37,497 bases of DNA, taken from Caldifarciminota bacterium (GTDB taxonomy: Bacteria; Hydrothermota; UBA3072). Of the stretch, positions 2,801-36,784 are shown one piece after another. Below the pieces are notes generated by a model. That model was given only the letters and a program-made list of their open reading frames with translations, did no database searches and had not been told where the DNA came from. Numbering within the stretch: position 1 is the first letter of the stretch; each line of letters begins with the position of its first letter. The position numbers were made by a program, and so were the translations under genes. The DNA lies in contig JAGLZA010000134.1 of assembly GCA_023131835.1 (NCBI GenBank), positions 1-37,497 of the forward strand, written 5' to 3'.

Positions 2801-2989
2801 TGATTTATTATTTCTTCCTGTCGTTTCTGCCCCGCCTGTTTAACACATCCAAAACCATTAAACGATTTTCGTTATCAACAACAATATCCTGTCATCCAAA
2901 GCCGCAATAAAATCACAACATAATGACCCCCAATCTGTCTCCCCGAATCTGGTATGTTAGTTCATTAATATCCATATTTCTTCATCTTT

Positions 2990-3156
2990 GCCACAGACCC
3001 AAACAGACGGACACAGACATTTTAGCCGAGCGACCCCAGTTAAATAGTCCTTCGGAATTTTACGGGGCAGGCATGCTCGGCTAAAAAGAGTCATCGCTTC
3101 GCGAAAAGAACCCAATGTTGTTTCGTCCGTGTGTTTCTGTGTGAGTCTGTGGCTAA
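2990..3156. repeat. Family A covarying-hairpin element, reverse orientation, with nested family B element
   Basis: A 12-bp perfect stem, TTTTAGCCGAGC (3020-3031) with GCTCGGCTAAAA (3075-3086), encloses a family B unit at about 3033-3072. On one side lie repeats of CAGAC (reverse complement of the GTCTGTG box); on the other a 32-base constant block at 3089-3120, which is the exact reverse complement of 6198-6229. A second set of GTGTG/GTCTGTGGCTAA boxes follows to 3156. Confidence 0.8.
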
Positions 3157-3210
3157 ATCAAAAAATCTGCGTTAATCCTCCAGGCGGACAAGTCTGCGTA
3201 ATCTGCGGAT

Positions 3211-3291
3211 CTATCTCACATCTATCTCACATTCTCACACGATCTCACATCAAACAGAATATCTCACACGCGGACCGCTTCCCTGTTTGTG
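3211..3291. repeat. 81-bp direct repeat, copy 1
   Basis: By eye this is base-for-base identical to 9714-9794. It begins CTATCTCACATCTATCTCAC and ends CCCTGTTTGTG. The left third is a TCTCACA(T) micro-repeat. It lies 21 bases downstream of the stop of the AlbA_2 gene at 3313. In copy 2 the same sequence encodes the last residues of the other AlbA_2 gene. Confidence 0.9.
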
Positions 3292-4704: not shown

Positions 4705-5010
4705 TCCAATCTCTTAAACCTCCGTCCTTTGATCTCCGACCTCCGCCACCTCGCCACCAATGATTCTTGCGGAATATTGTGTTTCTCTTCTGTCTTCTGA
4801 TCTCCGTCCTCTGACCTCCGACCCCCGCCCGCCTCGCAAGCGAGAGCGTTGCGGGCAGGTCTGTCTTTTCCTCGCAAAGCGATGACTCTTTTTTATTCGG
4901 TCAGGTCGACCGAATAAATGTCCGTGTGAGTCTGTGTGCGTCTGTGGCTAATCCATCTTTATCTTTTGTCATTTAAAACCATTTGTGCCTTTTGCGCCTT
5001 TTTGCGGCTA
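4705..5010. other. Intergenic region with two repeat families
   Basis: About 300 bases without a gene. From 4720 to 4830 it carries degenerate CTCTGACCTCCGAC-type heptamer micro-repeats (family D, also found inside fnlB at 14413-14440). At 4870-4952 is a family A element. At about 4831-4858 a GCCCGC...GCGGGC inverted repeat is present. Confidence 0.55.
4870..4952. repeat. Family A covarying-hairpin element without nested insert
   Basis: CGCAAAGCGATGACTC leads into a perfect 11-bp stem, TTTATTCGGTC (4892-4902) with GACCGAATAAA (4908-4918), loop AGGTC, then GTCCGTGTGAGTCTGTG boxes ending in GGCTAAT. The stem sequence is unrelated to the stems of the other copies, but self-complementarity is kept. 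Confidence 0.8.
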
Positions 5011-5604
5011 TTAATCCAAAATCGCTACACAATAAATCACCTTATGACTCGTATTCGCCTCTTCAGAAGATATCCTATCCGGCTCAACATAACGTCCTCT
5101 GTATAAGGTTTTATCATCTTTTTCACTCTGCTTGCCCTGTGGAATTCCCGACTTGTCGGGACTATTCCTCTGGGGCGTAATCCCTGCCCCGTGGAATTCA
5201 CTTGTGACAGGGGAGCGTATTCCACTGGGGTGCGGATCTATCTCCACCGGCATCTCCACCAACCCCCCAAACACAATCCTCTTCAACCACTTCTTTCCCC
5301 CAGTAGTCTTAGGCATAATCCCCAACATCACAGCCAACTTTTTTATCGGTCTAAGCACCCTCTGCCGCATTGAAGCATCACCAACGGGTGTATCTCCAAA
5401 AAACTCCGTCTTAAACCCATGCCTTGCAAACAGATCATTCAACTCCACCACTCCATAATACTTATAACTATGCGGACTCGAATTAAAATCATAGCCAGCG
5501 CAATACTGCCTTGCCCAGTAATAGCGGTTGCACAACCTGTCTATCTGTTCTTGCGTAACCTCATCACCAGCGATTTCGGTGACTCAAACGTAATCTCTAT
5601 TCAC
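5011..5604 (-). pseudogene. SAM-dependent methyltransferase remnant: stop codon, internal deletion, repeat insertion
   Basis: Reading from a GTG at 5604 (AGAGGGG upstream): MNRDYV, a TGA stop at 5584-5586, then VTEIAGDEVTQEQIDRLCNRYYWARQYCAG, the usual N-terminus of a class I methyltransferase found in polysaccharide loci. The family then continues with the SAM-binding core (a DVLEVACGTG-type motif and ~100 residues), but here the sequence jumps directly to YDFNSSPHSYKYYGV, the C-terminal part. So the cofactor-binding core has been deleted in frame. Near the C-terminus, between VEMPVEID and YVEPDRISSEE, about 45 extra residues are encoded largely by two family B repeats (5133-5234). It cannot bind SAM in the normal way and is non-functional. 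Identification is from memory of the family. Confidence 0.75.
5133..5234. repeat. Two family B hairpin repeats inside the methyltransferase remnant
   Basis: Unit 1 (5133-5177): TGCCCTGT, then GGAAT-t-CCCGAC-tt-GTCGGG-act-ATTCC, then CTCTGGGGCG. Unit 2 (5185-5234): TGCCCCGT, GGAATTCACT...AGCGTATTCC, ACTGGGGTGCGG. The inner stem is GGAAT/ATTCC instead of the TTAAAT/ATTTAA of other copies, with the CCCC/GGGG clamp kept. Both are read through in frame on the minus strand. Confidence 0.75.
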
Positions 5605-6197: not shown

Positions 6198-6328
6198 CAA
6201 CATTGGGTTCTTTTCGCGAAGCGATGACTATTTTTGTCCGGCGAAGCCTGCCCCGTTAAACGCGTAGCCTGTTTATCTGGGGTCCGCCGGACAAAAGTCT
6301 GTGTCGGTCTGTGTGTGTCTGTGGCTAA
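6198..6328. repeat. Family A covarying-hairpin element with nested family B unit
   Basis: The 32-base constant block 6198-6229 is the exact reverse complement of 3089-3120. A perfect 12-bp stem follows, TTTTGTCCGGCG (6232-6243) with CGCCGGACAAAA (6285-6296). Its loop is occupied by a family B unit (CCTGCCCCGTTAAAC...TTTATCTGGGG). GTCTGTG boxes ending in GGCTAAT close the element. Confidence 0.85.
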
Positions 6329-6402: not shown

Positions 6403-6543
6403 TCCCCAATCTTATTTCCTACAGCCCCTTATCACCTTGACAACTCTATCCAGATCCTCCTCCGTCATCGCCGTACCGGATGGCAAACACAACCCCCTCT
6501 CAAACAAGTCTTCCGCCACCTGACCACCAACCATCCTCGCCTT

Positions 6544-6672
6544 ATATGGTTTGTTTTGTATTTTCCCCGCAAAGCGGTAACTGTTTTTCCTCTGCGAAGT
6601 CCGCAGGGAAAAAGTCTGTGTCAGTCTGTGTGTGTCTGCGGCTAATTTTTCTTCAGTTCTTGTCTTTATATC
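6544..6672. repeat. Family A element inserted in frame in the aminotransferase gene (copy 4)
   Basis: Stem TTTTTCCTCTGCG (6584-6596) with CGCAGGGAAAAA (6602-6613), one bulged T, loop AAGTC, flanked by GCAAAGCGGTAACTG and by GTCTGTG boxes ending in GGCTAAT. The extra protein segment is 43 codons and includes AADTHRLTQT from the boxes. Confidence 0.8.
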
Positions 6673-7152
6673 GAACACAGGCTGCAGATGCATCGGCTTC
6701 CACACCGGCCTAGCCTCGATATTTTCCTCCTCCAGCGCCAAGCGCACAGTCTCCCTGTCCGCCCCAAACTCCTCCGGCGTAATCAGAATCACCGTCAGCC
6801 ACCGGTTAGACTTTCCATAAGAAGCCTCGGGCATAAACTCAATCCCCGGCACATTTCCCAATGCTTCACGATAATAATCAAATATCTCCCTTTTTCTTTT
6901 TACCCGCTCATCCAAAACCTTAAGCTGTCCTCGTCCAATCGGGGCCAGGATATTACTCATCCGGTAATTATAACCAATCTCTGTATGCTCATAATGCGGA
7001 AACGGATCCCGTGCCTGCTGAGAGAGGTTGCGTGCATAATCAATGAATTCATTATCATCAGAAGCCAACATCCCCCCACCCGACGTCGTGATAATCTGAT
7101 TCCCGTTAAACGAAAAAACAGCCGCCTTTGCCCCCACTCCCGCATGCCTATA

Positions 7153-7260
7153 TCTTGTAAGGTTATCTGCTCGCGTATGCGATGACACTTTTTCCCCTGC
7201 GAAGTCCGCAGGGGAAAAGTCTATGCCTGTCTGTGTAAGTCTGTGTGGGTCTGTGGCTAA
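7153..7260. repeat. Family A element inserted in frame in the aminotransferase gene (copy 5)
   Basis: Perfect 12-bp stem TTTTCCCCTGCG (7190-7201) with CGCAGGGGAAAA (7207-7218), loop AAGTC, preceded by GCGATGACAC and followed by GTCTGTG boxes. It is read as 36 extra codons containing ATDPHRLTQT, the same frame as the other insertion. Confidence 0.85.
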
Positions 7261-7785
7261 TTTGTATTTCGCACCTAACGCCTCTGCCGCGTCAGCCACC
7301 ACCGGCACACCATATTCCCCACAAATCTCAAATATCCGCTCATAATCAACGCAGTGCCCATACAGATCCGTAGGAACCACCGCCTTAGGTAAGTTTCCCC
7401 TCTTTTCACACCTCTCCAGCTCCCCCTTCAACAACCCCGGATCCATATTCCACGATTCCTGATCACAGTCAATAAACACCGGCACCGCCCCCTCAAACAC
7501 AACCGGCGTCACACTCCCGATAAATGTCAAGGAAGATGCGATCACCTCATCCCCCGACCCCACACCCAAAAGCCGCATGGCCAGATGCATGGCCGCAGTC
7601 CCGCTTGAAACCGCCACCACATAAGGAATCCCCCACATACTCGGCAAACTCCCGCTCAAACGCATCCACCTGCGGTCCTAAGGGTGCAATATAATTGCTC
7701 TCAAACGCCTCACGAACAAACCGTATTTCTTCTCCACCCATATGAGGCGGAGAGAGGAAGATGCGTTTTGTTAATTTTAAACTAC

Positions 7786-9713: not shown

Positions 9714-9794
9714 CTATCTCACATCTATCTCACATTCTCACACGATCTCACATCAAACAGAATATCTCACACGCGGACCGCTTCCCTGTTTGTG
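9714..9794. repeat. 81-bp direct repeat, copy 2
   Basis: Identical by eye to 3211-3291. The last 13 codons and stop of the AlbA_2 gene at 9753 are inside this repeat, while the remaining part extends beyond the stop codon. Flanking sequences of the two copies differ on both sides. Confidence 0.9.
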
Positions 9795-36740: not shown

Positions 36741-36784
36741 AAAGTCGGGGACGTCCATTTGTAAAGTCGGGGACGTCCATTTGT
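36741..36784. repeat. 22-bp perfect tandem repeat, two copies
   Basis: AAAGTCGGGGACGTCCATTT plus GT occurs at 36741-36762 and 36763-36784, followed by a further AAA. The GGGGACGTCC core is partly palindromic (GGACGTCC). From memory, this kind of motif recurs near REP-type elements and Y1 transposases; none is seen here. It lies between legB and hicA. Confidence 0.85.

Follow-up and report, generated by a model that had tools for sequence, protein, structure and literature searches.

A contig binned with a Caldifarciminota bacterium raises the question of how one short palindromic repeat came to lie inside the hairpin loop of another, twice and at the same base. The window analysed here is the entire contig (JAGLZA010000134.1 of assembly GCA_023131835.1, 37,497 nucleotides, C40 of a 3.9-Mb bin of 537 contigs). 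Very short palindromes have repeatedly entered the hairpin loop of another repeat, at one base and in one orientation, in a group of sulfate-reducing-type bacteria, which suggests that the loop itself can be a landing site for mobile DNA. Taken as a whole, the data are probably best explained if these palindromes, of two families called B and C, are small mobile elements of a non-autonomous kind that insert cleanly into loops and also at linear G^T sites (the caret marks the insertion point). The spread of short non-coding palindromes in bacterial genomes is a long-standing question, on which these nested copies bear.

Repeat families and nested copies of the window

A family A element comprises a small hairpin (TCGCGAAGCGATGAC or variants) and a GC-rich one that stands between a T-run and an A-run, followed by a tail in which 10-bp TCTGTG repeats lead up to a final GTCTGTGGC. 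The stem of the second hairpin varies from copy to copy across Desulfobacterota and its loop is conserved, ending in GTC (AGGTC, AAGTC, ATGTC, AAAGTC and similar); these hairpins were collected by demanding pairing, so that only the diversity of the stems, not their pairing, counts as evidence. One full-length element lies at 2987-3157 on the minus strand, bounded on either side by TIR-like TCTGTG-repeat tails and containing the small hairpin TCGCGAAGCGATGAC and a variable hairpin that is filled; its subfamily also occurs full length on contig C188 of genome G067 (locus L353). A function of the A hairpin as a terminator was rejected, as on either strand its GC stem has T-runs on the 5' side and A-runs on the 3' side. 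In the Olavius algarvensis Delta 4 endosymbiont (L157), positions 610-990 hold a tandem array of five units, each of them a small hairpin with its TCTGTG tail.

Three A hairpins of the window, all on the plus strand, are un-nested and have the 5-base loops, AAGTC or AGGTC, that the initial annotation had ascribed to such copies: 4892-4918 (AGGTC at 4903-4907), 6584-6613 (AAGTC at 6597-6601) and 7189-7218 (AAGTC at 7202-7206). The last two lie within a DegT ORF. The A copies concerned (6567-6646 and 7172-7261) are in frame within a single DegT/DnrJ aminotransferase gene (ORF 6412-7665, minus strand), to whose protein they add about 35 and 40 residues that are absent from the solved homologue 1o61; the N-terminal part of this gene lies upstream, out of frame. 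Family A thus shares with the Rickettsia palindromic elements (RPE) the presence of an in-frame palindromic repeat in ORFs (two copies, one DegT ORF). This likeness concerns position inside a protein gene, and the nested loop is a separate matter.

Among the matches listed in a scan of the genome collection with the A tail, family A is found chiefly in Desulfobacterota; in the viral collection, the tail was matched only once. The 59 phylum relatives of the bin lack family A, and the tetranucleotide composition of the contig correlates with that of G067 (Desulfobacterota, Meg22_46_Bin_1) at r=0.92 versus 0.58-0.70 with most other contigs of the bin. Because of this absence and this composition, the contig looks mis-binned.

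Families B and C are palindromes of roughly 26-48 nt with the ends 5'-CYTGCCC...GGG-3'. Family B has the form CYTGCCC(C/T)GT-variable stem-AYTGGGG and family C the form CCTGCCCGCC...GGCGGG. On the plus strand, the window carries un-nested B copies at 1157-1195, 2157-2195 and, with a longer interior, 5183-5230, as well as a copy at 2066-2098 that belongs to the B2 subclass (GTAG..GTAC interior). G067 contains 49 exact-pattern matches to B and about 35 copies of C, and the majority of B and C copies lie outside hairpin loops.

Two further B copies fill the loop of an A hairpin. Copy 1 reads, in minus-strand sense and with the insert in brackets, TTTTAGCCGAGC-ATG-[CCTGCCCCGTAAAATTCCGAAGGACTATTTAACTGGGG]-TC-GCTCGGCTAAAA: the 5' arm TTTTAGCCGAGC (3075-3086) is followed by the loop remnant ATG (3072-3074), a family B palindrome of 38 nt (3034-3071), the loop remnant TC (3032-3033) and the 3' arm GCTCGGCTAAAA (3020-3031). 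Copy 2, on the plus strand (6232-6296), reads TTTTGTCCGGCG-AAG-[CCTGCCCCGTTAAACGCGTAGCCTGTTTATCTGGGG]-TC-CGCCGGACAAAA. Its family A 5' part, CATTGGGTTCTTTTCGCGAAGCGATGACTAT (6201-6231), precedes the 5' arm TTTTGTCCGGCG (6232-6243), the remnant AAG (6244-6246), a B palindrome of 36 nt (6247-6282), the remnant TC (6283-6284), the 3' arm CGCCGGACAAAA (6285-6296) and a tail of 10-bp TCTGTG repeats (6297-6328). A complete B unit therefore sits in the A loop at both places, as first noticed. The TC remnant noticed with it also stands, whereas the other remnant, read at first as A or AA, is of three bases (ATG or AAG), giving the junction NNG^TC.

With DNA parameters, the two nested units form much more stable folds than their shuffles do (z -5.2 and -4.7; none of 200 shuffles as good). 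If copies were placed at random, the probability that two of about eight B copies would fall at exactly these loop positions in about 10 kb of spacer is estimated at about 1e-6. Both stems also occur empty, as GAGC-AAGTC-GCTC on contig C73 of the same bin and as GTCCGGCG-ATGTC-CGCCGGAC at L121, the latter with an identical 25-base 5' flank (TTTTCGCGAAGCGATGACTATTTTT). The B unit of copy 1 is closest to the un-nested copy at 1157-1195 (alignment score 30, versus 18.5 to the B unit of copy 2). The B insert of copy 2 is identical to one on G067:C188, which points to a nested ancestor common to these two. The two nests of the window had been taken as independent insertions at one point; the point is the same in both, and they are likely to be separate insertions, which is less strictly shown for them than for others.

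Filled and empty loops in other genomes

Nested A copies were sought by pattern in 40 Desulfobacterota genomes drawn from the A-tail scan and then in 22 genomes of one GTDB family. With the two of the window, 17 were found; the other 15 belong to seven Desulfobacterota genomes (four in G067, four in G085, three in G110 and one each in G100, G107, G111 and G115), mainly from one GTDB family. All 17 have the form 5'-stem-NNG[CCTGCCC..GGG]T-stem'-3' and agree in both junction and orientation (17/17). The constancy of TC on the right is partly built in, as the pattern demanded it; TT replaces it in the nested copy L205. A broad scan of loops returned many large-loop matches that are chance pairings or TIR pairs, and only NNG[CYTGCCC..GGG]T was retained. 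In G067 and G085, 6 of 12 hairpin-bearing A copies are filled, in a small tail-based sample counted by eye.

The loop filler is family B in some nested copies and the unrelated palindrome family C in others, and stem classes and filler families occur in 13 combinations. Comparing loop contents across A copies, as had been proposed, yielded filled and empty versions of the same stem. The stem CGCCGGCC has an empty AAGTC loop in one genome (L084), while another genome carries both a C-filled (L186, identical to L075) and a B-filled copy (L200), with sequence matches on both sides of the hairpin. Likewise, the stem GTGGCGAC is empty at L342 (G085:C195), C-filled at L199 (G085:C104) and L355 (G100), and B-filled at L369 (G110) and L361 (G111). 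No target duplication is seen in the filled/empty pairs. A minimum of four insertions can be called strictly separate, as B and C have each entered two stem classes that are also known empty.

Structure, sequence and descent at the insertion sites

The initial annotation proposed that family B targets hairpin loops. The 17 nested A copies, with their at least four strictly separate insertions, the entry into other hairpin families and the pairing of flanks support this well. Exclusivity does not hold, since most B copies are at linear sites, typically G^T; hairpin loops are preferred targets of B, not obligatory ones. The B2 subclass is found only at linear sites, and the loop insertions involve the other B type and C. 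For C, the sites outside family A show no strict target.

Some of these other sites are themselves repeats. In G067, the spacer repeat AATCTGCG^TAATCTGCGGA, which is widespread, carries inserts of family B at this point or close to it in nine or more cases, chiefly of the GTAG..GTAC subclass (L233, L235, L244, L290, L294, L299-L301). Family C occupies the middle of a REPIN-like inverted pair, CCCTA^CGTAGGG, whose many copies may go back to a single composite that spread (L232, L267, L278, L279, L283, L285). The A tail is also a target, with B2-type elements at GTCTGYG^T in L353 (G067:C188), L361 (G111), L363 (G115) and L367 (G114); the first three of these tail inserts are on A copies whose loop is filled too.

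Targeting by sequence only, in which G^T or G^TC would be all that B and C recognise, the A loop being merely a good copy of this motif and its hairpin irrelevant, agrees with the base preference of B (G at -1 in 27 of 32 sites, T at +1 in 23 of 32) and with the repeated entry into the linear hosts AATCTGCG^TAATCTGCGGA, AATCCTG^TCAATCCTG and GTCTGTG^TC. It is nevertheless improbable. The bases on the left vary freely in hairpin hosts (AAG, ATG, AGG, ACG, GGG, AGA, CTC, GTC, TTC). For the pentamer A[AGT]GTC, extrapolation gives about 44,000 occurrences in G067 and G085 together, yet the collected B and C insertions at this pentamer are confined to A hairpins. Furthermore, the A tail, although each copy of it offers about eight sites of the G^T type, totals no more insertions than the single loop site.

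Paired flanks argue in the same direction, exceeding what shuffles give. Among B and C sites gathered without reference to family A, and therefore not selected for nesting, the flanks pair with a stem of at least 8 at 3 of 32 non-redundant B sites (0.19 in shuffled flanks) and at 5 of 33 non-redundant C sites (0.18 in shuffled flanks), values reached in none of 2000 shuffles in either case. The background at random GT sites is 11 of 2599 (0.4%). Host hairpins other than A include hairpin D, GTCTGATTTTTCCTC^TCAAAAAATCAGAC (the GTCTGATTTTT hairpin), which is empty at G067:C30 and filled at C87 and C132, as well as TTTCGTTTGTCGCTG^TCTCTCGACAAACGAAA (L254), CTCAGTTTCCA^GATGAAACTGAG (L268, filled by family C) and, in a further genome, TTTCTTTTCGCCTTC^TCAGCGAAAAGAAA (L095). 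It is very likely that loop targeting is linked to structure.

The structure recognised could in principle be that of an RNA, the element entering the loop of a transcribed hairpin (by reverse splicing or through a reverse-transcribed intermediate) before being copied to DNA. The fixed orientation, the clean joints and the loop position would suit an RNA hairpin equally well, but neither intron-like nor retron-like features were seen in B or C and Rfam gives no match at the gathering score in the window, so that the RNA route appears decidedly improbable.

Descent from one nested ancestor, an objection that the initial annotation had raised against its own proposal, would mean that B entered A once and that the composite then spread, its stem and insert diverging later. 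Some nested copies are indeed kin: the copy at 6244 and that of G067:C188 have identical B units, both window copies have the A 5' part ATTGGGTTnTTTTCGCGAAGCGATGAC in common, and G085:C21 carries two near-identical nested copies. For the pair of copies in the window, taken by themselves, such a history could still apply. In general, it is contradicted and very improbable, because one and the same stem occurs empty, C-filled and B-filled. A single entry would not leave fillers of two unrelated families at one base of a stem class that also has empty relatives; the B unit of copy 1 is closer to un-nested B copies than to that of copy 2, and other hairpin families have been entered as well. Least credible of all is a modular structured RNA or protein site, in which selection would extend a functional A loop with B/C-like modules without transposition: pairing and the loop GTC are retained while stems vary, but B and C are dispersed in dozens of copies at unrelated sites, and exact empty and filled versions exist.

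Possible mechanism and related systems

For B and C, the identity of the elements, their recurrence at one base and in one orientation, the clean joints without duplication, the filled and empty versions, the several host hairpins and the excess over chance are direct observations. To account for them by insertion of mobile DNA into loops, the following model can be drawn. The loop would be recognised as a structure, be it a cruciform, an extruded hairpin or a single-stranded hairpin. The element would travel as a folded single strand, and the enzyme that cuts and joins would be supplied in trans and could be HUH/Y1-like, i.e., an IS200/IS605 or RAYT transposase. Single-stranded transfer, with ssDNA as the presumed intermediate, is plausible but unproven, and movement by a single-strand HUH mechanism is put forward tentatively, as a serious candidate. 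It is also possible, though rather unlikely, that these repeats represent a structure-guided system in which hairpin mini-elements of about 35 nt would be joined into the loops of other DNA hairpins by an enzyme so far unconnected with repeats of this kind, the stem sequence being largely irrelevant; the repeats would then stack, each new hairpin providing the next landing site.

Y1-domain (HUH) matches number 14 in G067 and 5 in G085. B or C lie beside almost none of the Y1 genes: B adjoins 1 of 30 Y1 loci, and neither family flanks the rest. A link of B and C to RAYTs was therefore rejected, as Y1 genes are present but not flanked by these repeats, and a non-exhaustive search found no autonomous partner of either family.

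Like the REP/RAYT-type repeats, B and C are short, palindromic and present in many copies per genome. They do not carry GTAG or CGTC at the foot of the hairpin, as they start with CYTGCCC and GTAG is found only inside B2, and their copies do not flank a RAYT gene. Because B and C lack these two REP features, their loop nesting is classed as a variant of a known phenomenon, palindromes within palindromes, in a new and unusually clean form. MITE features, namely a target site duplication and ends common to an autonomous transposon, are not seen in B and C. The absence of target duplication and the fixed orientation of the 17 of 17 A-nested copies are as expected for the IS200/IS605 type, whose insertion is orientation-specific. 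In both REPIN/RAYT and IS200/IS605 systems, a tetranucleotide guide sets the cleavage site (PMC3116915, PMC6006769). B and C resemble the elements of both systems in being small hairpins without target duplication, and Y1 genes are present in these genomes; they differ in having no GTAG foot and in not flanking Y1 genes.

REPs located within other palindromes have been reported for GTAG-15 of A. variabilis, GTAG-23 of T. roseum and CGTC-1 of H. neapolitanus (Di Nocera et al. 2013, PMC3733652). The target of T. roseum GTAG-23 exists in hundreds of unlinked copies, and REPs were also found inserted in ORFs, some of them twice (PMC3733652). Like B and C, these GTAG/CGTC REPs, 20-40 bp in length, are bacterial palindromic repeats lying within palindromes. 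In contrast, B and C have no terminal tag, and here a single base of a variable-stem hairpin is entered by two unrelated families, with empty and filled versions that match; the association is mentioned only in passing in PMC3733652. The insertion sequences IS1397, ISKpn1, ISPsy8 and IS621 insert into REP palindromes (Tobes and Pareja 2006, PMC1525189), and one of them, ISPsy8, goes into what is probably a REP hairpin, on its axis of symmetry, and makes a 3-bp duplication (PMC1525189). Palindromic repeats are the targets in both cases, but those elements encode a transposase, whereas the inserts described here are non-coding palindromes with which no duplication is seen.

Nested palindromic repeats are also known from the organelle DNA of Volvox (PMC2670323), and the GC clusters of yeast mitochondria are mobile, merge with each other and are flanked by short direct repeats (PMC4478555). 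Both are short mobile hairpins inserted in or merged with each other, as here, but they are organellar, and base-precise, orientation-fixed insertion into loops is not described in the portions of these two papers drawn on here.

Loop nesting accounts for the growth of composite intergenic repeat clusters that are hard to align. As one defined hairpin exists in natural filled and empty versions, with two unrelated elements at the same base and in several hosts, loop targeting can be put to a direct test, using Y1 transposases and targets on plasmids.

The window has two other repeated segments. An 81-bp stretch is 100% identical between 3211-3291 and 9714-9794; it adjoins two paralogous genes (SLFN_AlbA_2 + HATPase_c_4), or lies at their 3' end, and the genes themselves are more diverged, which suggests a recent conversion or a mobile gene end. 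At 36741-36784, the 22-bp sequence AAAGTCGGGGACGTCCATTTGT is perfectly duplicated in tandem.
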